A stretch of DNA of 26,446 nucleotides from a virus. The notes beneath the pieces were generated by a model. The model was not told the origin of the DNA, did not search any database, and saw nothing but the letters and a program-made list of their open reading frames with translations. The position numbers and the translations under genes are program-made. Within the stretch, counting starts at the first letter, position 1; every line of letters starts with the position of its first letter. Of this stretch, positions 6,599 through 26,278 are shown in pieces. The stretch lies in the IMG/VR virus record IMGVR_UViG_3300014502_000248, positions 1 to 26,446 of that record; one strand, 5' to 3'.

Positions 6599-8101
6599 TC
6601 AGACGGTGAAGGTGAACTTGCTGTCGTCGCTGGCGAGCGACGGCCCCTTGCCGCTGGTCACGGTGACATCGACGATGCCCGCCGCGTGCGCTGGCACGAC
6701 GGCCGTGATCTGGCGGTGGTTGTCCACGACGAACGACGTCGCCGGGACGGCGCCGAAGCTCACACCGGTCACCCCGACGTAGCCCGAGCCGGTGATGACG
6801 ACGGTTGCGCCACCGGCAGCCACGTCCGTGGCCGGGTCGATCTCGACGATGAACGGGGCCGCGAGGTCCGAGAAGAGCGTCAGAACGCCCTGGTCGGACT
6901 CCCAGTCCATCGAGATGGTGATGTTCTGCTCCACCCGCGGCGAGTAGCCGGGGAGAGAGAACCGGGCGTCCGGGACGTGGAAGCGCTTGAGCGTCGCGCC
7001 GCCAGCCGAAGCATCCTTGATGATGATGTCGAGCTCAAGGATCTCGGCCAGGTCGGGACCGATGGCCTCCTTGAGGTTCTGCTTGCCTGTGATCGCGCGG
7101 AGCTTGCGGTACAGGTCGTCGACATCGCGGGGGAGGATCGAGATGCTGCCCGACACGGTCGGCACGTCGAAGTCGCGACTGACGGCGTTCGGGTTGCCGA
7201 ACTCCATCTCGACCTCTTGCGTGACCTTCCAGTCCAGGGTGATGTCCTGGACGCCGGTCCACTTGTTCGCCGCCGACAGCGCCGGATTGGCGGCGTTGTA
7301 GCCACCGATGTAGACGTCGATGTCGCGACCCTTGACGGCAGCCGGCTTCAACGTGGCCGGGGTGTGGACCGTCTGGGCGTACGTGATCGGATCCGGCGAG
7401 TGGTACGTGACGTAGATGGTGTCCGTGATCGGGACAGCCGCCACGAGCGTGACCGTGACGATCGCCGCATCGAGCGTGACCACGCCCTCGGTCAGGGTGT
7501 AGTCCGCACCCTCCGTCAGCCGCTGGTTGGCGACCGTCACGCACAGCACGCGCCGGAGACCGTTGGCGTCGGTGTACGGGTAGGCGGGGTGCACCGTGGC
7601 GACAGCCTGGCCGGCGACTGCCGTACCGAGGTAGTCGTCGATGTAGACCGCCCCGGGGCAGTAGTAGATCGAGTCGCCCTTGAGGGTGAAGGTCTCGGTC
7701 GCGTTGTCCTTCAAGCCGAACTTGTACGACGCGCTCTCGATCGTCAGATACGGGATCGCAACCCCGTTGGCTGCGACGAAGGCGTTCGGACGCTTCTTGC
7801 CCGGCTTGAGGTTCTGCGCCACGTTGAGGCAGTGCGACGTCGCGAGGTCAATCCCGGTCGCCGCGATCTCGGCGTCCGTCATGCCGACGAAGACCTGCTC
7901 GGTGTCCGTGGACACGTCGAAACTCTCCAGCGTGAACGTCAGGTCGGGGGTGTCCCGAATCGTGGCGACGCTGGTGTAGTTGCCCAGCTCGTAGATTTTC
8001 TCGCTTGGGATGCTCAGTGCGCCGGGACCACCGGACTGCAGCCGCTCAATGAGCGCCACGCCGTTCCCGACAGTGATGAGCGATCCAGCCTTCACAGCCA
8101 C
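6599..8101 (-). CDS. Major tail (tube) protein with C-terminal Ig-like TIG domain
   Basis: A 500-residue protein started by GTG 8101 with GGAGG seven bases upstream; a longer in-frame ORF reaching 8335 is rejected because its extra residues are Arg-rich and lack a ribosome site. The N-terminal part (VKAGSLITVGNGVALIERLQ) and the following beta-rich stretch fit a tail-tube fold. About residues 190-250 hold an extra Thr/Val-rich beta segment (YTLTEGVVTLDAAIVTVTLV). The last 85 or so residues (PATDVAAGGATVVITGSGYV onward) match the IPT/TIG Ig-like fold, probably displayed on the tail surface. Position just before the frameshifting chaperones supports the call. It is longer than the 200-300 residues typical of tube proteins, explained by the added domains. 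Confidence 0.85.
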   Translation of the reverse strand: MAVKAGSLITVGNGVALIERLQSGGPGALSIPSEKIYELGNYTSVATIRDTPDLTFTLESFDVSTDTEQVFVGMTDAEIAATGIDLATSHCLNVAQNLKPGKKRPNAFVAANGVAIPYLTIESASYKFGLKDNATETFTLKGDSIYYCPGAVYIDDYLGTAVAGQAVATVHPAYPYTDANGLRRVLCVTVANQRLTEGADYTLTEGVVTLDAAIVTVTLVAAVPITDTIYVTYHSPDPITYAQTVHTPATLKPAAVKGRDIDVYIGGYNAANPALSAANKWTGVQDITLDWKVTQEVEMEFGNPNAVSRDFDVPTVSGSISILPRDVDDLYRKLRAITGKQNLKEAIGPDLAEILELDIIIKDASAGGATLKRFHVPDARFSLPGYSPRVEQNITISMDWESDQGVLTLFSDLAAPFIVEIDPATDVAAGGATVVITGSGYVGVTGVSFGAVPATSFVVDNHRQITAVVPAHAAGIVDVTVTSGKGPSLASDDSKFTFTV

Positions 8102-8108
8102 TTTGTTA

Positions 8109-8113
8109 CCTCC
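8109..8113 (-). promoter_or_regulatory. Ribosome binding site fixing the major tail protein start
   Basis: GGAGG on the minus strand lies seven bases before GTG 8101. No comparable site precedes the longer open frame, so this site decides the start. Confidence 0.8.
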
Positions 8114-8218
8114 TGCGTACCGAGGCCCACGCAGGGGCCGACGATGATTCGCTTGAGGCACTCGACCGTCGAAGAGTGGATCTCGGCGATTCGTGCGGGC
8201 GCAGAAACGGCATCGCCC

Positions 8219-8254
8219 TTGCTGGCGCCACCTCAGCGGCGCGAGAATTGAGTC
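8219..8254 (+). promoter_or_regulatory. Candidate promoter for a leaderless plus-strand gene
   Basis: TTGCTG (8219-8224) and GAGAAT (8243-8248) are separated by 18 bases. The -10 box matches TATAAT at four of six positions; the -35 box is weak. The ATG at 8255 lies seven bases after the -10 box, where a transcript would start, and no Shine-Dalgarno sequence precedes it. This fits a leaderless mRNA, which is common in actinobacteria. The evidence is weak and rests on spacing. Confidence 0.4.
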
Positions 8255-9043
8255 ATGGATGCCGTCGTCAATCCGCACGCGCCGCTCGCTGACCTGGCGA
8301 CGGTGAAGGCGTGGATCATGTGCGCCGGAAGCCATCTCGCAACCCCGGCCGAGGACTTCAAGGAGTACTGGTCGACGACCGGCCGTGGGATCCGCTCAGA
8401 CGCGCTGCCGGACGGGCTCACGTCCGCAGAGATCACGCGCCTGACACACCACCGGATTGACCCCCGGACACTGTTGCGGGCACTGAACTCCAACCCGCTG
8501 AACAACGACTCCCCGGCCACTCTGAACGTCGTGCTCCCGCAGGCGTGCAAGATCGCCAAGGACAGCGACCTCGCGCTCAACGGCACCTTCGTCCGCTCGT
8601 GGGTGGACACCCTAGAGAAACTCGCCGCCCAAGCCAATGTCGCGCTGGAGATCGGCGGGGGTGAGCGACGAGAACTGAGCGCAGACCTGCTGGCGATGGT
8701 CACGCGCGCGCCCTTCGAGCCGGTGCTGAGCACTCGCGACCGGGGCCTCATCACGGCCTGGGGCGAGCAGGCGCGTCTAGCCGTGGCGTGCTCACGGATC
8801 GAACTGAGCGAGTTCGTCGGACTAGAGGATTTCCAGGATGCCTGCGTAGCTGCGTGGGACCTTCCTGCGATCTACCCCCATCACCTCGGCGTAGGCGGCA
8901 CGCAACAGATTGATGGGTCGGTTCGTCCTCTTGAAGCGCTGGAAGGCTCGGCTGTAGGCATCCTGCGGGTCGATCCCCTTCTGGATGAAGCCGGTGAGGG
9001 TTGCCCCGTCCCCGTCCTCCTCGACCTGTCCGTCCCACGTTGA
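8255..9043 (+). CDS. Unknown protein, plus-strand orphan inside the tail operon (moron-like)
   Basis: A 262-residue open frame on the strand opposite to every neighbour. I recognise no domain. The first 185 or so residues look like a soluble, helical, Ala/Leu-rich protein (MDAVVNPHAPLADLATVKAW at the N-terminus; TLEKLAAQANVALEIGGGER later). Third codon positions are strongly G/C up to about base 8820, and the minus-strand frames opposite are Ser/Arg-rich shadows, so this strand is the coding one. From 8822 to 9043 the frame runs against the end of a minus-strand tail gene and its third-position GC falls, so that tail of the frame may not be functional. In the next frame stops occur at 8805 and 8823, so a single-base change would end the protein just before the opposing gene. 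A possible leaderless promoter precedes it. It may be a lysogenic-conversion or exclusion gene; this is speculation. Confidence 0.72.
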   Translation: MDAVVNPHAPLADLATVKAWIMCAGSHLATPAEDFKEYWSTTGRGIRSDALPDGLTSAEITRLTHHRIDPRTLLRALNSNPLNNDSPATLNVVLPQACKIAKDSDLALNGTFVRSWVDTLEKLAAQANVALEIGGGERRELSADLLAMVTRAPFEPVLSTRDRGLITAWGEQARLAVACSRIELSEFVGLEDFQDACVAAWDLPAIYPHHLGVGGTQQIDGSVRPLEALEGSAVGILRVDPLLDEAGEGCPVPVLLDLSVPR

Positions 9044-9565
9044 GAACGGCTGGAACTTGTCGCCTGCACTGAATCCGTGGTGATGGAACTCGCCGCCCGC
9101 GAGGTAGTAGATCCCCGAGGATCCCATCGCCGTCCCGCCTGAGAGTTCCGACCCCCAGACACCGAATAGCCGCTGGCCGACGTGGATCGACGTACCCTCT
9201 TCGATCTGGCGCCAGTACTTCGCCTGCGACCTGTCCATGAACGCCGGGTTACCGACCCGCCACCCCGAGGCGTGCATGACACGGTTCCGCTCATCCAGAG
9301 TGGCAGCCTCTAGGCGGTGAGTCGAAACCTCGGGTCGCCTGACAGTCTCCTTGTACGCTTCCACCACCATGAGCTGAAATGTCTCGGCGGCACTTGCGTA
9401 GTTCTTCTGCATCAACTTGAGGATGTCATCCCAGGCGTGTTGATGGGTCGCCCCTGGGCTGTTCACCGCCTCCCAGAATCCGTTGCCCCCTTGGGGGACG
9501 TTGACTGTCACAACCAGTCCTGTATCCGCGATCGGGATGCGGTAGTACAGCCGGCCGAGGGCCAT
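8822..9565 (-). CDS. Probable tail-completion or minor tail protein, unassigned
   Basis: A 247-residue protein from ATG 9565, which overlaps the stop of the upstream gene (TGATG). Longer starts up to 9637 are rejected because they lie inside that gene. It is soluble, without signal peptide or membrane span, and contains YYRIPIADTGLVVTVNVPQG near the start, a helical middle (ILKLMQKNYASAAETFQLMV) and a Gly/His-rich region (GGEFHHHGFSAGDKF). Location between neck genes and the tail-tube gene suggests a part of the head-tail joint or tail initiation, but I recognise no family. Its 3' end overlaps an opposing plus-strand frame by 222 bases, and the next minus-strand gene begins only about 720 bases further on. 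Confidence 0.75.
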   Translation of the reverse strand: MALGRLYYRIPIADTGLVVTVNVPQGGNGFWEAVNSPGATHQHAWDDILKLMQKNYASAAETFQLMVVEAYKETVRRPEVSTHRLEAATLDERNRVMHASGWRVGNPAFMDRSQAKYWRQIEEGTSIHVGQRLFGVWGSELSGGTAMGSSGIYYLAGGEFHHHGFSAGDKFQPFSTWDGQVEEDGDGATLTGFIQKGIDPQDAYSRAFQRFKRTNRPINLLRAAYAEVMGVDRRKVPRSYAGILEIL

Positions 9566-9834
9566 CAGTCGGCCTGGAGGTTGCGGACCTGATTGTTGAT
9601 TTCCGCGAGCAGGCCGATGACCTCGTCGTTGACCCACGTACCCTGCGACACGCCGCGCACGACGTCAATCAGGAAGTCGCTGAAGGAGCCGGCCGCGACC
9701 AGCACCTTGATGCGGAAGGCGTGCTGCTGCTCAACGGTGAGGTCGGCGTAGAACTCCCGCTCGGCATGACCGAGAATCGTGCCGACCAGGCGCTTTCGCT
9801 GCTCCCCGATGATGGCAACGACAGGGTCGGCCAT
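9565..9834 (-). CDS. Small unknown structural-operon protein
   Basis: An 89-residue protein from ATG 9834, overlapping the stop of the preceding gene by one base (TGATG). A longer start at 9867 is rejected as it lies inside that gene. The sequence is helical and amphipathic (EQRKRLVGTILGHAEREFYA; the end is NEVIGLL-like, with NNQVRNLQAD closing). No family is recognised. Size and place, between a connector candidate and a minor tail candidate, would fit a small neck protein or a helper for it. Confidence 0.7.
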   Translation of the reverse strand: MADPVVAIIGEQRKRLVGTILGHAEREFYADLTVEQQHAFRIKVLVAAGSFSDFLIDVVRGVSQGTWVNDEVIGLLAEINNQVRNLQAD

Positions 9835-10337
9835 CAGCTTTCCTCGCCGGGGAAGTCCATCACGCACACCCCGGATACTGAGAACCAGTTGCGACTCGCG
9901 GTGGAAGGCTGGTTGCGCATTACCTCTGCGAACTCCCCGAGGTAGCCGGAAAGCTCAAGCCCGGTCCCCGGATCCACGGGACGCAAATAGCGGGTGCCGC
10001 CGAGCAGGCCCGTGAATCGGCCCTTCAGGTCGCTGGAGATGACCTCGCCGATGGACTCGTCAACCCCGATGACGTCGCAGAAGAAGACGTATTCAATCCG
10101 CAGCATCCCGCCGCCGAGCTCAATGGCATCGTGGTCGCCCTCCCGGCCGAAGGAGATGAACGCGACATTCCCGACGATCGACTGCAGGTTGGACGGGTCC
10201 GGCGCTCGGCGCTCAACGGTCACGGCGGTGGTGCCGAAGTTCGGGGTCGCCCCCGTCCAGCCGTACGCGTCGAGGAACCCCTGGACCATGTCCGCGACGG
10301 AGTTGTAGATGTAGCGCGAGTCGAACCGAACGCTCAC
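9834..10337 (-). CDS. Candidate tail terminator or neck protein
   Basis: A 167-residue protein started by GTG 10337, coupled to the previous stop through GTGA. The N-terminal helix (YNSVADMVQGFLDAYGWTGA) followed by alternating beta strands (MLRIEYVFFCDVIGVDES) and a short helical turn (GEVISSDLKGRFTGLLGG) resembles the alpha-beta layout of tail terminator proteins, which cap the tail tube and join it to the head. This is inferred from order and general shape, not from a recognised motif. It could also be a head-closure protein. Confidence 0.6.
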   Translation of the reverse strand: MSVRFDSRYIYNSVADMVQGFLDAYGWTGATPNFGTTAVTVERRAPDPSNLQSIVGNVAFISFGREGDHDAIELGGGMLRIEYVFFCDVIGVDESIGEVISSDLKGRFTGLLGGTRYLRPVDPGTGLELSGYLGEFAEVMRNQPSTASRNWFSVSGVCVMDFPGEES

Positions 10338-10792
10338 TTGGTGTCCTCAGTCGAGCACTCGATGGTCCACACGCCGACACTGTCCAAAGAGACCTGCTGG
10401 GTGATCTTGCGGTAGTTGAACCGCACCGGAGTGCCTTCGTGGGTCGGCCAGAGGTTGAGGTAGGTGAAGCCCTCGATGGTGAAGTACTCCTCGTCCAGGA
10501 GCGTGACGTGGACGACCTGGGGGTACATCCGGCCGAAGTTCTGCTCGACCAGGAGGTTGTTGACCCATTCCACCGCGCACAGTGGCCGCAGCGTGACGAG
10601 CACGGGAGTAGCCACTGCGGCGTCAGGATCCCAGGCGACACCGTTGTAGTCGACCGTGGCGCCGGATGCGATCACCGGGACGGTCACGAACTGCGGGCGC
10701 CGGGCGGCGTCGTCGGGCTGGGCCATCCGCATGGGGAGCCGGATGCCCTCGCGGAACGCTGCGGCGTCGAAGCCGGGGATCGCGAGGGCCAT
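10334..10792 (-). CDS. Candidate head closure / head-tail connector protein
   Basis: A 152-residue protein from ATG 10792, overlapping the previous stop (TGATG). The N-terminus contains GIRLPMRMAQPDDAARRPQF, and the rest is beta-rich (VNNLLVEQNFGRMYPQVVHV, YFTIEGFTYLNLWP). I do not recognise a named family. The position as second gene of the connector cluster, after the adaptor candidate, is where a head-closure or stopper protein is usually encoded. No membrane segment or signal peptide is present. Confidence 0.6.
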   Translation of the reverse strand: MALAIPGFDAAAFREGIRLPMRMAQPDDAARRPQFVTVPVIASGATVDYNGVAWDPDAAVATPVLVTLRPLCAVEWVNNLLVEQNFGRMYPQVVHVTLLDEEYFTIEGFTYLNLWPTHEGTPVRFNYRKITQQVSLDSVGVWTIECSTEDTK

Positions 10793-11301
10793 CAGAGGAC
10801 CCAGCGGGGGAGCGCGTTCTCGTAGGGGAAGAACCCGCCGTAGAAGTTGTGGTCGTACATGCGGGTGACGTACGCGTCGAGCACGAACACCGAGGTGCCA
10901 TTGCCCCGCCGCGCGTTGTCGAGGATCTGGTTCTTGCGGGCGGTCAGCGCCTTGAGCAACTCGGTCATGGCGGCGGCGCTCTGCTTGATCGCGTACTCCA
11001 CCGGGCCGGCCTTGTAAGAACTCTCTGTCGACAGCGTCAGGATCCGCTGGCGAATCAGGCGCATCCCCGCGTAGATGACGACGAGCGCCGCGCCGGCCGT
11101 GCTCAAGTCGGGGGTGATCTCCCCGGCGTCCACGTCGAGGGCCATCGTGTGGAAGAAGCCGTCGAGTTGGGCCTCGCCGAACGCATCCCCGAGGGATGCC
11201 GCGATGTGCGCGTCGGTGGTGCTCGGGAAAGCCGTCACGAAGGTGCCGGGAACCGCGACCTCCCGCTTGTACGCCTCCACCAGGTCAACCAGTTCCGTCA
11301 T
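10792..11301 (-). CDS. Candidate head-tail adaptor protein
   Basis: A 169-residue protein from ATG 11301, with a purine-rich GGGATAGGGG stretch just upstream; the start at 11319 is rejected because it would overlap that site. It is mostly helical (MRLIRQRILTLSTESSYKAG, AAAMTELLKALTARKNQIL), as adaptor proteins that dock under the portal usually are, and ends with an aromatic segment (YDHNFYGGFFPYENALPRW). It opens the connector cluster after a hairpin. The adaptor call depends on gene order and helical content only. Confidence 0.6.
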   Translation of the reverse strand: MTELVDLVEAYKREVAVPGTFVTAFPSTTDAHIAASLGDAFGEAQLDGFFHTMALDVDAGEITPDLSTAGAALVVIYAGMRLIRQRILTLSTESSYKAGPVEYAIKQSAAAMTELLKALTARKNQILDNARRGNGTSVFVLDAYVTRMYDHNFYGGFFPYENALPRWVL

Positions 11302-11320
11302 ACCCCTATCCCTCGACATG

Positions 11321-11362
11321 CCAGGACCCCCTGCACGGCGAAATCACGTCAGGGGGTCCTGG
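11321..11362. terminator. Long perfect hairpin between two structural genes
   Basis: Arms 11321-11333 and 11350-11362 are perfect 13-bp inverted repeats with a 16-base loop; three more pairs can form across a bulged base inside the loop. Neither strand has a U-tract after the stem, so it may act as an RNA processing or stability element rather than a classical terminator. It fills the short gap between the 167-residue gene and the adaptor candidate. Confidence 0.6.
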
Positions 11363-11379
11363 AGTACATGCGGGTCGGA

Positions 11380-11883
11380 TCAGTCGAGCACAGCGTCCCT
11401 CGGCGCACCGCCCGGACGGTAGTTCTCGATGATGTAGTCCGTGAGGAAAGTCAACTGCGCCGACGAAACCAGTTCGGAATTGGACTCGGCCAGCGCGAGC
11501 ATCCGGCGCACGTTGCGCTCGGTGAACTTCTTGACTTTCGCGTGGAACGCGTTGCCGCTGGAAGTGAACGTCACCAGCAGGTCCTTGTCCGACAGGGCCT
11601 GCTCCTTGTTGTAGTCGGGCATCTGCTCCACGACCTCAGCGGTCGGCACGTCGACCCGCTTGAAGGTCCCGTTCAAGAACGGGTCCGACTCGGGCTCGAC
11701 GTGCATGGCGTGGTTCGCCTCCCGGTCCGGGGACGACACCTTGAAGCGGGTGCCCGACTTGCCCTTGATGCGCCGGGGCCGCTGCATCAGCGGGTTGCGC
11801 ACATCCAGCACCATGATCCAGACCCCACCCGGAGTGGTGGTCTCCCATACCTCATGGGTGACGCGGATCGTACTCTCAGCCAT
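11380..11883 (-). CDS. Unknown structural-operon protein after the major capsid gene
   Basis: A 167-residue protein from ATG 11883, with GGAGG five bases upstream. The in-frame extension to 11913 lacks any ribosome site. The N-terminal part is beta-rich (STIRVTHEVWETTTPGGVWI), the middle basic (RPRRIKGKSGTRFKV), and the C-terminal part helical (TERNVRRMLALAESNSELVS). I recognise no family. It is isolated by a hairpin on each side (11986-12017 before it, 11321-11362 after it), so its expression may be set separately from the capsid and connector genes. A minor capsid or head-completion role is possible but unproven. Confidence 0.75.
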   Translation of the reverse strand: MAESTIRVTHEVWETTTPGGVWIMVLDVRNPLMQRPRRIKGKSGTRFKVSSPDREANHAMHVEPESDPFLNGTFKRVDVPTAEVVEQMPDYNKEQALSDKDLLVTFTSSGNAFHAKVKKFTERNVRRMLALAESNSELVSSAQLTFLTDYIIENYRPGGAPRDAVLD

Positions 11884-11985
11884 AGCCCCTCCAAGGACGT
11901 CGTTGGCTCTCATTGAACTGCCCGGCCGTGCGTCGGCGCAGATTCTGCGATTGCTGCTAGCGCAGGTTTCTCACCCGGACGACGA

Positions 11986-14109: not shown

Positions 14110-14213
14110 GAGCCATTCCTCCTCGCTTGAAGTTCAGGCCCGGCTATGGATCGGCCCTCGCGAGAAGTACTCGACTTGGGTACTGGAGAACGTGAAACCT
14201 GCGCCCACAGGAA

Positions 14214-15044
14214 TCACACGGTTCGGGCGCTCCACTGCAGGATTGAGGCGACCATCTGGCGCGCTTCGTCATCGGCCAGACCGGGCAGGTGAAGGTCCGC
14301 TGCTTCAACCTGGGCCTGGGCGTCTTGCTGCAGTCCCATGCTGGTGATGTTGGCGTCACGCCATCCCGGCGCCTGCGGGGGAACAATCACGGCCGCACCC
14401 TGAAAGACGGGGTCGACGAAGCGACGGTGCGAAGCGCGCTCCTTGACGTGCTCGCAGGCGACACCGCTGCGGGTCTGCGCGTCGACATAGGGCATGACCG
14501 CGCCGCAGCCGTTCGGGCCTACGCACGCGATCTCGTTGGAGACGCACTCCATCGAGAACCACGCTTGGCCGGCGTCGATGAAGTTCGCGAGCGCGCGGGC
14601 CTTCTCGCGGAACAGGAACGCCCACACGACGGCGCCGGTCTGGATGTGCGGCCCGATGCCTTCCGCTGCCCGCTCAGCGGAGACCAGGAGTGGGTCGACG
14701 AGAGTGCCAATGATCGCGGCGGGATCGTGGCCCCAGTTGAGTGGCCCGTGCGCGACGCTGGGCAAGCCGAACTCCAGGTCGCCCTGCGACCAGAAGGCGC
14801 CGTTGGAGTTCGCCGTCTCCGCCTCGACGAGACGACCACGGAACTTGAGCAGGAAGTCGTCAGCGTTGAACTTCGCGGTCTCGGCGACGATGGGCGTCGC
14901 GATGACGACCCGGTTGGTCTCGTGGTTCTCGACCATGAACGCTGACGCCGTCGGCTTCTCCGGCAAGACGACAACTCTCGGGACCTCGACTGCACGATGC
15001 GGAGGGCGAAGACGATCGCGGAGTTGAATCACTGACTCAGTCAC
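14214..15044 (-). CDS. Capsid maturation (prohead) protease, candidate
   Basis: A 276-residue protein from GTG 15044, overlapping the portal stop (GTGA). LNWGHDPAAIIGTLVD (His106) resembles the catalytic His region of phage prohead serine proteases, and AWFSMEC (Ser164) lies 58 residues later, a spacing comparable with those families. Between and after them come beta strands and a Cys/His cluster (Cys167, Cys174, Cys180, Cys197, His199) that could bind zinc and is not usual for the family as I know it. Location between portal and scaffold is the standard protease place. The C-terminal 50 residues (GLQQDAQAQVEAADLHLPGL) look helical. It would trim scaffold and capsid N-termini during maturation. 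Catalytic assignment is inferred from motif similarity. Confidence 0.7.
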   Translation of the reverse strand: MTESVIQLRDRLRPPHRAVEVPRVVVLPEKPTASAFMVENHETNRVVIATPIVAETAKFNADDFLLKFRGRLVEAETANSNGAFWSQGDLEFGLPSVAHGPLNWGHDPAAIIGTLVDPLLVSAERAAEGIGPHIQTGAVVWAFLFREKARALANFIDAGQAWFSMECVSNEIACVGPNGCGAVMPYVDAQTRSGVACEHVKERASHRRFVDPVFQGAAVIVPPQAPGWRDANITSMGLQQDAQAQVEAADLHLPGLADDEARQMVASILQWSARTV

Positions 15045-18858: not shown

Positions 18859-19427
18859 GGCGTCACACGCTTTGCGCGGGTGGCAAAGGTCTGTCGCTTC
18901 CCGGCGCTCATCCCGTAGCCTGCGGCGGCGTTCGGTGTGGAGGGCGTGTAGGCGTACGTGTCGGCCTCGATCGTGGCGAAGGCCTGGATGGACCGGTGCG
19001 GGCTCAGCAGGCCGTCGATCGCCTCGTGGATCGCCAGGACGCGGTACTCGTGGAAGTACGCCGGGTTGACGTGCACGACCCTGGCAATGACCTCGATCTT
19101 GGCCTTGGTCAACGGCTCCGTGCCGTGCATCATCCGGAACAGGTTCCCGGGGTTGATCCCCGCCAACTTCGCGATCGTTGAACACGTCTGCTTCGACGCC
19201 CCGCGCAGCGCCTCAGCAAAGGGGAGCGTGGAGCGTCTCGGGTAGACCACGTTCACGACGTCGTCGATGGACCCGACCGTCAACGCCGGCCGACGACCAC
19301 GGCGCTCGATTCCCATCTCCCGCTCGCGCTCTGCCGCAACCTCGCCCAGGATCTCGGCGAGAAGCCGGTAGAAGGTTGGAGGGATGTCGCGGAAGTGGGA
19401 GGCCCACTCCTCTTCAGTGAGGGTCAC
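18855..19427 (-). CDS. Helix-turn-helix DNA-binding protein next to the large terminase
   Basis: A 190-residue protein from GTG 19427, whose start overlaps the previous stop (TAGTG). Residues about 76-125 form an XRE-like HTH: STIAKLAGINPGNLFRMMHG followed by LTKAKIEVIARVVHVNPAYF. The N-terminal 50 residues are acidic and helical, with a basic RRGRRP segment near 43-48. The C-terminal 60 residues are flexible. As the gene immediately before the large terminase, it could be the DNA-recognising small terminase subunit, or a regulator of the late operon. The two options cannot be separated from sequence alone. Confidence 0.8.
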   Translation of the reverse strand: MTLTEEEWASHFRDIPPTFYRLLAEILGEVAAEREREMGIERRGRRPALTVGSIDDVVNVVYPRRSTLPFAEALRGASKQTCSTIAKLAGINPGNLFRMMHGTEPLTKAKIEVIARVVHVNPAYFHEYRVLAIHEAIDGLLSPHRSIQAFATIEADTYAYTPSTPNAAAGYGMSAGKRQTFATRAKRVTP

Positions 19428-20215
19428 TAGATCGTGCCAACCCAGTACTTCTGACCGTTCGCGCGGAACTCCGCGTCAATCGAGTGGAACTTCGGGACCA
19501 TCTTGTCCCGGACCCAGGCCACAATCTGCTCGTCGTTCTCGATTCCCGTCTTGCGCCGCTCGAACTCGTTGCTGCGGTCGAACGTCCCGACGATCGAGGA
19601 AAGTTCGTTCATCAGGGTGATTGCCTCGACGGCCTGATTGTTGCGGTTGATCCCGAACTCGCGAGCGCGCAGGCGGAGATTCGCAATGTAGTCCGCGACG
19701 CTGCCCTGCTGCTGATCGCGCGACGCGCGAGTCAGGCCCAGTTGCCGCTTGAGTTCCCCGATGATCTTTGCCTCGGCGAGTTTGTTCTGCCGAAACTGCT
19801 CTTCCGCCCGATAGGGGAGGAAGATCCCGTCGTACATCTTGCCGCTGGCGAGTTGGGACGTGTACCGAAAGTCGAGGAGCTCGTGCATAAGCAATGCGTC
19901 CAGGTCGGCGAGATCCGAGACGGCATCGAACTTGTTCTGATCGAGATACGCAGCCTTCTGGGTGTTGTAGAACAACTCCTCGGCCTTGCCCTGCACCTCG
20001 ATCGCGGAGCCCGTCGGCTGGGTGACCTTCCGGAGCACGATGGCGACCAACTTCGGCGGCTTCGCTGCCGCCTTCTTCGTGGCCGTGGTCTTCGCTGCCG
20101 CCGCCCGCGCCCGTGATGCCTGCATGGGCGTGACCACGGGCTTCCCCTGGGCAGCGCGGAGTTCTCTCTCGATCGTCTCGGCGCTCTTGCGTCGCCCGCT
20201 GCCCGGTCCACCCAT
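19427..20215 (-). CDS. Candidate terminase small subunit
   Basis: A 262-residue protein from ATG 20215. The N-terminus MGGPGSGRRKS is a form often seen in phage small terminase and related packaging proteins. A basic Ala/Lys/Thr linker follows (residues about 38-55), then a helical body (DLADLDALLMHELLDFRYTS, LAEAKIIGELKRQLGL) and RTSRASRDQQQG-like polar turns, ending in YWVGTI. No Shine-Dalgarno sequence is visible before the start; TCGATTGACCA lies seven bases upstream. A hairpin terminator closes the preceding gene, so a promoter of its own would be expected in the 45-base gap, yet none is convincing. The HTH gene that follows is a rival for the small-subunit role. Confidence 0.65.
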   Translation of the reverse strand: MGGPGSGRRKSAETIERELRAAQGKPVVTPMQASRARAAAAKTTATKKAAAKPPKLVAIVLRKVTQPTGSAIEVQGKAEELFYNTQKAAYLDQNKFDAVSDLADLDALLMHELLDFRYTSQLASGKMYDGIFLPYRAEEQFRQNKLAEAKIIGELKRQLGLTRASRDQQQGSVADYIANLRLRAREFGINRNNQAVEAITLMNELSSIVGTFDRSNEFERRKTGIENDEQIVAWVRDKMVPKFHSIDAEFRANGQKYWVGTI

Positions 20216-20259
20216 GATGCAATGGTCAATCGACCACCCCGCGTTGCCCGGAAGGCAAA

Positions 20260-20281
20260 GATTCCTGTGCTAGCAGGAATC
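20260..20281 (-). terminator. Intrinsic terminator before the packaging genes
   Basis: GATTCCTG and CAGGAATC form an 8-bp stem with a 6-base loop. On the minus strand the stem is followed by TTTGCCTT, a short U-rich tract. It begins two bases after the stop codon of the 278-residue gene, so it probably ends or weakens the helicase transcript. Confidence 0.65.
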
Positions 20282-20282
20282 G

Positions 20283-21119
20283 TCAGAACAAGGGTGGACG
20301 TGGGTAGGCAGCCCCCCTGAAGGGGGGCGCTTCCTCCAGCCAAACCGTCCAGCGCTCGGTCGCAGCAGCCATGAGGTCCCGAGACTCGTGCACCACCCGC
20401 AGCGCCTGGTCGGCCCAGGCGCGCATCTTGTCCTTGTCACGAGTCGCGAGGATCTGCTCGACAGTGAGATCCGGCAGGCCAGCGCCGGGGTTGAGCACCT
20501 TGCCGTACATCGACTCAACCAGGTTGGCGCCGTCCTCCACGGCCTGGATAGACCGCGCCCAGCGCTGCAGCACCGGCAGTGGATCAGGGCAACAGCAGAC
20601 CAACTCCGGGTAGTAGGCCAACGCCCGCACGCGAGAGGTGACGATCGCCGGAACCGGATGATCCGCCACGGTGCTGTCCTGGTCGAGCTCGCGAAGGCTG
20701 CTACCCATCAAGCCCTCGACGAACAACCAGTCAGCCTCGCCCATCCCCAGGAACGTCTCGGGCGCTCCCCACAGGTTGTGCAGCCGGTGCATCGGCCCAC
20801 CGTAAAGCGTGTGAGCCGATGCACCGGTGCGTCCTTGTGCGTCGGTCCGGTCCCTGCTGACCACGACCAGGTCCTGACCGGTGAGCAGCAGGCCGACGAA
20901 GGTGCTCCTGGCGTCGGCGAGCACGGGTGCCCGTTTCAACAGCGAGAACGGGGAATAGTTGGTGTTCAACCCCGGGTAGATGGCCCGCAGGTAGCGCGGC
21001 TGCTGCGAGTCCACCGTGATGCTGGTGGTGGCCCGGCAGGTCGTCTCACGGGCCTTGATCGCAGCACTCCGAGCCCTGACCTCAGCCACAGGGGCCTCCA
21101 CGGCTCGCTTGTACTTCAC
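20283..21119 (-). CDS. Unknown 278-residue protein coupled to the helicase
   Basis: Starts at GTG 21119, overlapping the helicase stop by three bases (GTGA), so the two proteins are probably made together. I do not recognise a family. The N-terminal 40 residues are basic and polar; the centre has mixed alpha-beta character (FVGLLLTGQDLVVVSRDRTD, MGEADWLFVEGLMGSSLREL) and a CCCPDPLPVLQRWARSIQ segment with three adjacent Cys residues. The C-terminal third is helical and Trp-rich (MRAWADQALRVVHESRDLMA). No signal peptide or clear membrane span. It may assist the helicase or be an accessory protein; nothing in the sequence decides this. Confidence 0.75.
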   Translation of the reverse strand: MKYKRAVEAPVAEVRARSAAIKARETTCRATTSITVDSQQPRYLRAIYPGLNTNYSPFSLLKRAPVLADARSTFVGLLLTGQDLVVVSRDRTDAQGRTGASAHTLYGGPMHRLHNLWGAPETFLGMGEADWLFVEGLMGSSLRELDQDSTVADHPVPAIVTSRVRALAYYPELVCCCPDPLPVLQRWARSIQAVEDGANLVESMYGKVLNPGAGLPDLTVEQILATRDKDKMRAWADQALRVVHESRDLMAAATERWTVWLEEAPPFRGAAYPRPPLF

Positions 21120-23130: not shown

Positions 23131-23375
23131 GACATCTCGGTTCTTCTTCTTCCGTTCTTCCGTTCCCGTCAACTGCTTACCAGCCGCATCATTCTTGATG
23201 GTACGGAGGGCCTTCGTGCTCCGAGAAGGACGATAGTCAGGTTGTCAACCGTGAGTCCAGCGATGAGGTCATCTGACGAAACGTGTGGGCACAGGAATCG
23301 CAACGATGGACGATGAGGGCTCTTCTGCAGCAGCCTGTGACTGATGCGGGCGGCTTGTCTGCAGCGATCTAGGAG
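23131..23375. other. Leader region without a supported gene
   Basis: About 245 bases before the plus-strand gene. The first part is a pyrimidine-rich tract with repeated TTCTTCCG (about 23141-23170). Further on are a small palindrome GGTTGTCAACC (23241-23251) and two TCTGCAGC copies (about 23323 and 23358). Two tiny open frames of 12 and 17 codons exist but are unsupported. If the AT-rich island drives rightward transcription, this would be a long 5' leader. Confidence 0.5.
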
Positions 23376-23381
23376 ATGACC

Positions 23382-23711
23382 GTGGACCTGGCAGCAGCAA
23401 ACGTGGTGGGCGCCCAAGCTCTGTACGAGAGCCACAGGGCGTTGATGGGGGTCCTCGATCTCCCCCCGTGGGAGAGGTTGCTCCCCATGCAGCAGCACAA
23501 CCTCCTGGAGCAGTCCCTGATGATCGTGGCCGAGGTCGCCCCCGTGATCGCCCAGCAGGTTCGTGACGACGTCGCCCGGGATCAGCGGGGTCTCGCCCAG
23601 TGGCTCATCTCACTGGACGACGACGACCCCACCTCACCCGGCCGACTGGAGCGCCAGACCGTCGGCCTGAACGACATCATCAAGCGCGCACGGACCAGTC
23701 TTCAGTCCTAG
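23382..23711 (+). CDS. Small plus-strand protein of unknown function
   Basis: A 109-residue protein. Start GTG 23382 is chosen because AGGAG (23371-23375) lies six bases upstream; ATG 23376 touches that site directly and would be poorly used. Third codon positions are rich in G/C on this strand, and the opposite frame is Arg/His/Cys-rich shadow, so the gene is real. The product is helical and acidic in its C-terminal half (HNLLEQSLMIVAEVAPVIAQ, SLDDDDPTSPGRLERQTVGL). No family is recognised. It runs against all neighbours and its TAG stop shares the four bases CTAG with the stop of the converging virion gene. Confidence 0.78.
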   Translation: MDLAAANVVGAQALYESHRALMGVLDLPPWERLLPMQQHNLLEQSLMIVAEVAPVIAQQVRDDVARDQRGLAQWLISLDDDDPTSPGRLERQTVGLNDIIKRARTSLQS

Positions 23712-26278
23712 TTCTCGATGGCCTTCAGCGTCACGATGGGGCCAGCGGCGAGGGTGACGGCGGCAGTGCTCGCCCGGACCCGAACCCACTTCGGCAAGGC
23801 GGCAGCCGAGACGTTGAGCATCACAGTGCTGCTCGCCACGGCGGTGAGGGCTCCGCCGATCGCGTACCAGTTGCCGTTGTCCTCGCTGCCCTCGATCTGG
23901 AGGATTGGGGCGGTGGCTACTGTCCCGATGGTCACCGTCAGGTTGAAGGTGTCGGCGCGCTCCACGAACCATGAGGGCGTCACCGAGTTGAGCGTGGTGA
24001 GCACGATCGAGCGGTCGACGAATGAGCGGAGGAGCGGCACCGAGACTGAGTGCTGCAACCGGTTCAACGACATCGTGAACGACGGCGTCGCGGTTCCGCC
24101 GATCGTTCGCACGTACCGGTACCGACTGCCCCAGACGGCGGGCAGGATCGGGGATACATACGTTCCGGTCCCGACGATCCGCGGGAAGTCGTAGATCCGC
24201 ACCCAGTTCGTCCCGTTATCGGGGGACTCCTCGATGGACACGTCCATCGTCGGGTTCGTGCCACTGGCGGCGGTGACGATGACGGAGAACGAGTGCGCGT
24301 TGGTACCGACGTTCGCCACCGACCCGGGCGAGGTGGCTGCCGACGTCGCGGTTGTTCCGATCGCCGCCGACGCGATATCCGCGACCAGGAACCCGCCCCA
24401 GCCACCCGCGCTCCACATCGTCGAACTGAGTCCCGCCTGCTGGGACGCACTGATTATCGTCGAGCCCGTGATGGTAACCGGGACAGCGTTGTTGGCGTCG
24501 TTCGCGTTCCCACGCCCGCCGACGACCTCAACAACGTGCCTCGTATAGTCCATGACTCGCGCGAAGTGGACGCGCACGTCGGTGCGCCGGATGAGAACTC
24601 CACCAGTGGTGATCGAGCCGAAGTCCGCCCCGATTGACTCCAATTCAAGGGACGATGTGCTCACCCTCAGCACCTTGTAGGCACCTTCGTAGGCCAAGGC
24701 GGCAGGCTCTAGGCCATACAGGTGCATGAACTCGCCGGGTAGTGGCGTGGCCCACGTGCCGTTGCCGATGACTGTGAGGACGTTGCTTGTGCGAGAAATT
24801 GACTGCGCAACTACCCCAAAGACCCCCGGGGTTGTAGCGGCAAGGACGGACCCCTCAACACGAAACACGACTCCACCCGCGCTCGATACCGTCAGCGCTG
24901 TGCCATCAATGACAGTGAAGTGAGTCGAATCTATGACTGAGGCGACTGCTGTCATGGCGGTCAGGTTCGGGAAACTGGTCGCATCACGCACCCCGTAGAC
25001 CTGCACCATGTCGCCCACCGCGAGCGTCGTGGCGACGTCTGTGGTCACGGTGGCAGTGGTAGTGCCGGTCTTGGCGATAGCGCTAATGCGTGCGACTGGC
25101 TTGGTCATGTTGCCCAGGTTGCGCGCCCGGATACGAAGTTTGTAGTCCTTGCCCTCGTCGGGAACAGCCTGCGAGTACTTGAGCGCCCCTGTGGTTGCCG
25201 CTACGCCATCTGCCGCGAATGACCGGTAGTAGATTTCCTCCATGCTGGCATAGAACTCGTGCGTAGCAGCAGAATTGAAAGCGTCGGTGTAAGGGGAAAC
25301 ATTCCCCTGAGTCGCGACGGTTGTTGAAACAGTCCCGGCGACTGAACGATACTTGCCACCGCTACGCCGGGCGGCGAACGATGCGGTAGTCGCCGTGACG
25401 CTCTCGAACAACAACCCTGCACCGTTCTTCGCAAGCCGAAACGGGTCGGCATGACGAACGTATCCACCGGTCGTGGAATATGACGCCCCGTCCGCCAGGG
25501 TAATCGGCAACGTGAAGTGGTTCTTGTCGACAACGGTGACAACCACTGGCCCAACGTTCAATCGGTGCTCTGCGCATCCGAAGACAACAACCCGGTCGCC
25601 GCCGTTGAAGGGGTGGCCCGTCATCGTCACCGTGCCGACGTTCGTGGCGATCGTGACGGTAGCGCCAGTGATCGCATGGTCAACTTCAGGAGTGAGCGTC
25701 TCGACAGTGCCAGCGTCGTCAGCACCGACCAGGCCGATAAATACTTCCTGACCGGTGGAGCGCTGACTCATCGAGATGCCAAACCCCAAGCGCATCGGGA
25801 ACTGGAACGTCTCCTTCGAGGTCAGCACCACCTCGGAACTGTCCGTGAACGGATCCATCGAGATTCGGAGATACGACGACCCGAACGCATTGCCGCCCGC
25901 CGTGATGAGGTGGGCGGAATCCTGCGCCAGATCCCAGACGGCGGGATTGGGCTGAACCGCGCTGTCGAACCCGTCCCTGAACTTGCTGCGGGCGTTCCCG
26001 ACAATCTCGCGGTTGTACTGGGGGTCTCCCGACTTCGTGTCGTAGAAGACGGCCAGCCGATCGGTGTCAGACATCATCGTGGTGCTGTAGTCGAGGGTCA
26101 GGACGTTGGTCGCGACCGTCCCGCCCTTGAGTGGGTCCGCGAACGAGTACACAACGATGTTGTCCGTGACGTTCGTGATTAGCAGCACGCGCTCTAGGTC
26201 GATCTGGTCGAACTCACTGAACGTCACCGTCTTCGCGCTCGCGCTGAACGTGTAGCGGGGGATGAGTTGCTTGGTCAT
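23708..26278 (-). CDS. Large virion structural protein with repeated beta modules
   Basis: An 856-residue protein from ATG 26278 with GGAG eight bases upstream; the frame to 26401 is rejected as it overlaps the upstream gene. Residues 1-80 (YTFSASAKTVTFSEFDQIDL, LLITNVTDNIVVYSFADPLK, STTMMSDTDRLAVFYD) match a module I know from many phage virion proteins. Three copies of a beta domain follow at about 206-276, 400-475 and 493-566, with the pattern G-D-x-V-x-V-x-G then V-x-D-x-x-H-F-T and S-x-G-G-x-V; they resemble the FCCH-like fold found in phage tail proteins. Two C-terminal domains at about 661-740 and 775-856 share E-x-S-x-D-N-G-x-W and a closing beta strand. It may be a tail, fibre-base or decoration protein. 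Its place upstream of the helicase, away from the tail block, is odd. Confidence 0.82.
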   Translation of the reverse strand: MTKQLIPRYTFSASAKTVTFSEFDQIDLERVLLITNVTDNIVVYSFADPLKGGTVATNVLTLDYSTTMMSDTDRLAVFYDTKSGDPQYNREIVGNARSKFRDGFDSAVQPNPAVWDLAQDSAHLITAGGNAFGSSYLRISMDPFTDSSEVVLTSKETFQFPMRLGFGISMSQRSTGQEVFIGLVGADDAGTVETLTPEVDHAITGATVTIATNVGTVTMTGHPFNGGDRVVVFGCAEHRLNVGPVVVTVVDKNHFTLPITLADGASYSTTGGYVRHADPFRLAKNGAGLLFESVTATTASFAARRSGGKYRSVAGTVSTTVATQGNVSPYTDAFNSAATHEFYASMEEIYYRSFAADGVAATTGALKYSQAVPDEGKDYKLRIRARNLGNMTKPVARISAIAKTGTTTATVTTDVATTLAVGDMVQVYGVRDATSFPNLTAMTAVASVIDSTHFTVIDGTALTVSSAGGVVFRVEGSVLAATTPGVFGVVAQSISRTSNVLTVIGNGTWATPLPGEFMHLYGLEPAALAYEGAYKVLRVSTSSLELESIGADFGSITTGGVLIRRTDVRVHFARVMDYTRHVVEVVGGRGNANDANNAVPVTITGSTIISASQQAGLSSTMWSAGGWGGFLVADIASAAIGTTATSAATSPGSVANVGTNAHSFSVIVTAASGTNPTMDVSIEESPDNGTNWVRIYDFPRIVGTGTYVSPILPAVWGSRYRYVRTIGGTATPSFTMSLNRLQHSVSVPLLRSFVDRSIVLTTLNSVTPSWFVERADTFNLTVTIGTVATAPILQIEGSEDNGNWYAIGGALTAVASSTVMLNVSAAALPKWVRVRASTAAVTLAAGPIVTLKAIEN

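Follow-up and report, generated by a model that had tools for sequence, protein, structure and literature searches.

An apparently leaderless antisense gene in a phage tail operon carries the operator spacing of packaging genes

Introduction

Genes for the tail, head and packaging functions of a 26.4 kb soil virus record, analysed here over its full length and called the window below, lie almost without exception on the minus strand according to a GC-frame gene caller. ORF 8255–9043 on the plus strand is the clear exception, which raises the questions of whether it is a gene at all, whose promoter it uses and under which regulator it would be expressed. The initial annotation, made from the sequence alone, had regarded it as a moron, i.e. 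an independently expressed cargo gene that may be active in the prophage. Our own reading, to which we assign a probability of roughly one half, is that of an accessory gene with its own leaderless promoter, which would belong to a phage-wide operator regulon and be switched on together with the packaging genes during lytic growth. The features discussed are collected in Table 1.

Table 1. Positions of the features discussed; coordinates refer to the window unless another record or locus is named.
Feature	Position	Strand	Basis or remark
Antisense gene, conserved part (residues 1–203)	8255..8863	+	coding GC to 8821; BLASTP relatives; AlphaFold2
Non-homologous C-terminal extension and stop	8864..9043	+	shadow GC; relatives end near residue 203; opposite minus-strand gene
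Tail-tube-like gene with C-terminal TIG domain	6599..8101	-	TIG PF01833, E 1.3e-9; function inferred from position
Upstream tail gene, overlapped by the antisense ORF	8822..9565	-	relatives 33–43 % identical
-35-like TTGCTG	8219..8224	+	CTTG column kept in 5–6/6 phages, fixed spacing
-10-like GAGAAT	8243..8248	+	G/A/A/T columns in 5–6/6 phages
Palindromic operator GCGATTCGTGCGGGCGCAGAAACGGC	8186..8211	.	score 27.0, rank 3/26421; centre 8198.5, 56.5 bases upstream of ATG
Operator copy, intergenic	11947..11972	.	score 28.8
Operator copy, intergenic	14192..14217	.	score 18.7
Operator at first packaging-operon gene	20258..20283	.	score 31.5; 55.5 bases upstream of 19427–20215 (-)
Operator copy, intergenic	23276..23301	.	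score 18.7
Antisense genes of L038 and L053	about 190–600 bases upstream of tube gene at 8001	antisense to tube	TACGGT-N6-ATG in both
Sigma-70-like protein	G001 23607–24365, G003 26470–27111, G005 1230–2003, G006 32709–31993 (loci L082, L086, L090, L095)		Sigma70_r2 below cut-off
Conserved non-coding stretch	L084:4377–4526, L088:7766–7918, L091:19519–19664, L100:12767–12917		

Results and Discussion

ORF 8255–9043 is a genuine gene. The 720 bases without a minus-strand gene that had been noted between the tube-like gene and its upstream neighbour were found at 8102–8821, and a search of this interval for a conserved minus-strand gene retrieved none. Codon-position GC over 8255–8821 amounts to 0.67/0.50/0.85, matching the true genes of the window, while the antisense-shadow reference in the window is about 0.83/0.5/0.63. 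The plus-strand coding signal thus holds, and homologues in the same slot agree with it. A chance long frame opposite GC-rich DNA was considered as well, as the window is rich in long shadow frames such as 10666–11916 (+); however, nothing in sense orientation lies opposite 8255–8821, the GC pattern there is that of coding DNA, and homologues at the same place already refute a spurious ORF, to which we give next to no credence.

From 8822 onwards, codon-position GC changes to 0.82/0.45/0.61, the antisense-shadow pattern. The frame can be taken as coding until about 8860, and the final ~60 residues are antisense shadow. As the homologues also end near residue 203, these residues look like a read-through following loss of a stop codon. 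The ORF consequently overlaps the upstream tail gene tail-to-tail by 222 bases, whereas the convergent overlap in relatives comprises only about 14–50 bases. The long overlap, together with the lack of a terminator for the antisense gene in a simple scan of 8000–10500, would suit an antisense RNA that tunes the tail operon, with the transcript rather than the protein being what matters. Coding constraint on the ORF, protein homology and the short overlap in relatives speak against such a function, and we regard it as very improbable.

Viral scans seeded by the window's antisense protein or by the tube protein alone returned no relative, and scans of genome contigs with the tube alignments yielded no prophage; relatives were instead found via the neighbouring gene 8822–9565 and tube alignments. 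Defining the clade by tube proteins that align across all ~500 residues gives six distinct phages (the window, L007/L002, L008/L003, L009/L010, L011 and L060), with tube-like relatives 58–70 % identical within the clade. Each of the six has a coding-pattern antisense ORF starting 137–156 bases upstream of the tube start, and a tree computed from 54 tube proteins groups them in one clade with a support of 100/100. A systematic check of all tube loci revealed a coding-pattern antisense ORF in the same gap of two sister phages, L038 and L053, which form a separate branch of this tree (support 98/89) and whose products show no kinship to those of the other carriers by BLAST. In the 58 other tube loci, which include some near-duplicates, the sense ORF stops 9–228 bases before the tube gene and therefore leaves no room for an antisense gene. 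Antisense cargo seems to recur in the gap beside the tail-tube gene, a slot in which leaderless genes with unrelated products would be kept. The expectation of an insertion absent from relatives was borne out in part: the slot is empty in most of them, but judging from its presence throughout the clade the gene is not a recent or one-off insertion.

Some further observations concern the tube-like gene itself. Where the antisense gene is missing, the similarity of relatives to the clade's tube-like protein is in most cases limited to its first ~410 residues. Directly upstream of the ribosome site of the tube gene, 8102–8165 (-) contains a GC-rich hairpin of the GGCCC...GGGCC type, which is found at the same place in the other clade members and also in L004, a locus without the antisense gene. 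The tube-like homologue of phage GX15bay (MK557849.1; L006 7001–8218) is annotated in GenBank as 'epimerase', which is probably a misannotation since this label is at odds with the position in the tail region.

All four long records of the clade encode an integrase, two of the tyrosine and two of the serine type, and by this gene content the group is temperate. An actinobacterial host is likely, since a helix-turn-helix protein encoded in G001 (the record of L007), which has an orthologue in G002, hits actinophages exclusively (281/281 records); for the window itself such a host is presumed.

The sequence directly before position 8255 reads GCGCGAGAATTGAGTC, with a spacer of 18 bases between TTGCTG and GAGAAT. 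The -10-like GAGAAT noted just before the ATG was confirmed, ending six bases upstream of it, and neither upstream of 8255 nor evidently in any of the six clade upstream regions is there a Shine-Dalgarno sequence. These six regions align without gaps after a one-base shift for L009, with C, T, T and G at -37 to -34 and G, A, A and T at -12, -11, -8 and -7 each conserved in at least five of the six phages. A simple sigma-70 consensus scan of the window region gave no promoter at the antisense start, so the promoter call relies on this column conservation across related phages, by which comparison the proposal of an own, apparently leaderless promoter stands. In all eight carriers the -10 hexamer lies 6–7 bases before the start codon, and the antisense start looks leaderless in each of them. 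In Mycobacterium tuberculosis, leaderless genes with a -10 element at such a short distance are frequent (PMC3898074). The carriers resemble these actinobacterial genes in the distance of six to seven bases and in the missing Shine-Dalgarno sequence. At sequence level all of them would fit a leaderless gene, defined by a -10 element within 7–12 bases of a start codon that doubles as the 5' end, except that in place of TANNNT the six clade members have a -10 element beginning with G or C.

The words directly upstream of the -35 element recur within each long phage's own genome, where they are part of a palindrome, GCGATTCCTGC-N4-GCAGGAATCGC, in G001, G002, G003 and the window, while G005 and G006 carry other palindromes. 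For scoring we used a matrix built from 31 training sites of three other phages, excluding all antisense-gene sites and the whole window. The highest score in 40 shuffled windows was 13.2, compared with 27.0 for the site at 8186–8211. There are five strong sites in the 26 kb of the window and all five are intergenic; across six records this applies to 54 of 84 sites, against roughly 5–10 % non-coding DNA as estimated with a simple gene caller, with G006 contributing the weakest set, under half of which is intergenic. The operator was not found in the 9–17 kb loci of relatives outside the clade.

The distance from operator centre to antisense start is 54.5–56.5 bases in all six clade phages (sd 1.0), whereas that to the tube start ranges from 82 to 103 bases (sd 8.7). 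Likewise, a -10-like hexamer starts 42–44 bases from the operator centre on the antisense side in 6/6 phages and on the tube side in 0/6. An operator serving a tube promoter was thus rejected for its varying spacing and the missing -10 element. With the antisense sites left out, 11 coding starts lie at 54.5–56.5 bases from the remaining operators versus 2.2 per three positions elsewhere, a clustering with a Poisson probability of about 2e-5, with the reservation that the data in which the spacing first stood out overlap those of the test. In the window, G001, G002, G003 and G005 the same -55 module stands in front of the packaging operon's first gene, which in the window is likewise leaderless (19427–20215 (-), GACCAT-N6-ATG). 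It is also found before a small gene in front of the G005 integrase. There, at G005 57385–57408 (L092:17385–17408), a single palindrome is flanked by two small ORFs that diverge from it, both having a -10-like hexamer and an ATG at about 55 bases, and one of them leads into the serine integrase.

A sigma-70-like protein is kept in 4/4 long clade members, with Pfam Sigma70_r2 below the cut-off. Its gene is preceded by operators in G001 and G003 and by a weak operator in G005. This sigma factor and the helix-turn-helix proteins adjoining the packaging operon are no more than candidates for the protein that binds the palindrome. Besides protein-coding genes, a conserved non-coding stretch of ~145 bases ends the late operon in four phages. 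It has operators and a TTGC-N18-TAGAGT-like promoter ahead and a terminator-like hairpin at its end, its alignment is 79 % identical with compensatory change in 7 of 34 predicted pairs, and it has no match in Rfam. From these features it is a candidate for a new phage RNA.

From this geometry we infer a regulator, a sign of control and a timing. The accessory gene, moron-like in position and lying antisense to the tail genes of a temperate, probably actinobacteria-infecting clade, would be transcribed from its own leaderless promoter, with a putative phage DNA-binding protein recognising the repeated palindrome ~55 bases upstream of the start. Since operator, spacing and leaderless -10 element are shared, both the antisense gene and the packaging operon's first gene should react in the same way to the palindrome binder. 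As a prophage has to keep its packaging genes silent, silence is probable for the antisense gene as well, which with the same sign of control would most likely be off in the prophage and on in lytic growth. Activation through contact with RNA polymerase is our first choice, because a fixed site directly upstream of the -35 element fits activation better than occlusion.

The main rival assumes the same regulon with the opposite sign: without any activator, the palindromes would be dispersed repressor sites through which both the antisense gene and the packaging operon are kept shut off in the prophage. We consider this possible, if on the unlikely side. The sites are indeed dispersed and mostly intergenic, some lie beside or within other transcription units, integrases are present, and phiC31 and L5 are known to have 18–30 dispersed repressor sites (PMC4557955). 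A phage-specific site in many copies across a temperate genome, mostly between genes, is what these two phages have in common with the window clade (PMC4557955, PMC6550527). However, L5-type sites are asymmetric 13-mers found mostly in one orientation (PMC6550527, PMC4557955), whereas those of the window clade are palindromes at a fixed distance of ~-55 from leaderless starts, and with the centre near -55 the core promoter stays accessible, again a better fit to activation.

A classical moron, with its own promoter active in the prophage independently of phage regulators and a product for exclusion or host conversion, appears quite unlikely to us, even though the own promoter, an accessory slot filled by unrelated products in either branch and the temperate clade are in its favour. 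Phage morons such as HK97 gp15, cited in PMC9936078, are likewise extra genes with own promoters among structural genes and missing from most relatives. Here, absence from the site in relatives was seen in 58 loci, yet the gene is fixed in the clade, and an own promoter is indicated by the conserved columns in six phages. The simple scan found no terminator, base composition does not deviate, codon-position GC being like that of neighbouring genes, and the promoter carries the phage's dispersed operator at the spacing of the first packaging gene, which is necessarily silent in the prophage. Of the original moron call, accessory cargo with its own promoter therefore remains, but not its independence: the operator geometry it has in common with the packaging genes speaks against expression specific to the prophage, and independent prophage activity is not supported. 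With the switch of the packaging genes in front of it, the gene is unlikely to run freely as a mere passenger.

Two further systems bear comparison. The dyad of the P2 late promoters is centred near -55. These promoters depend on activation by Ogr (PMC3931495), and with a dyad upstream of several late promoters they resemble the arrangement at 54.5–56.5 bases from antisense and packaging starts, but the P2 dyad is TGT-N12-ACA and thus differs from the GCGATTCCTGC-N4-GCAGGAATCGC consensus, and the -55 targets of the window clade are, unlike those of P2, leaderless genes. The SAS/ESAS elements of Cluster K mycobacteriophages are inverted repeats with phage-specific consensus upstream of a subset of gene starts as well (PMC3203893). 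In contrast to the window's antisense start, which has neither GGGATAGGAGCCC nor a ribosome site, GGGATAGGAGCCC adjoins the start in Cluster K, and the sites in Cluster K keep out of the left half of the genome with its structural genes, unlike the operators of the window clade.

What the gene encodes was approached through its relatives and its predicted structure. The antisense proteins of the window, L008 and L009 are homologous with 26–32 % identity and E values down to 5e-15 (window by BLASTP against L003, E 6e-10; against L009, E about 1e-14), and that of L011 is weakly similar. Those of L007 and L060 show no significant similarity to the window's protein. This similarity is at odds with the tube tree: the tubes of the window and L007 are 70 % identical while their antisense proteins do not match, whereas with L009 the tubes are 64 % identical and the antisense proteins do match. 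Very fast divergence or replacement in the slot would explain this mismatch. The absence of a recognised family, claimed initially, was upheld in Pfam, PHROGs, NCBIfam and PADLOC, none of which gave a match above cut-off, and neither PDB sequences nor INPHARED phages contained a usable match. An NCBIfam hit of carphisopro on the L009 protein (E 8e-4, below cut-off, 17 residues) was taken as chance. Structure prediction, which had been suggested along with that claim, delivered an all-alpha model (AlphaFold2 pLDDT 81, pTM 0.63) but no standout fold, with a Foldseek E of at best 0.2 and a best VIA-align Z of 6.2 that is within the helical-bundle background. The encoded protein would probably act as a soluble accessory factor, all-alpha in structure, and not be a part of the virion. 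Our best guess for its role is that of lytic-phase accessory cargo, perhaps acting in counter-defence or superinfection exclusion during lytic growth.

Conclusion

In place of a vague moron call, the comparison offers a circuit that can be tested, consisting of one palindrome, one spacing and several genes. As a tentative generalisation, held with somewhat less confidence than the reading of the gene itself, an activator may control a phage-wide regulon in the temperate actinophage clade: leaderless genes of either strand would be driven from a palindrome centred at -55, and a fast-changing slot for antisense cargo would have become part of this regulon. If such an activator regulon exists, its targets would be the packaging operon, the sigma-factor operon, the integrase neighbour and the structured RNA, and cargo would be delivered in step with virion production, not from the prophage. 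This would provide an actinophage parallel to P2-type -55 control and would show how cargo carried on the opposite strand can stay synchronised with the lytic genes.
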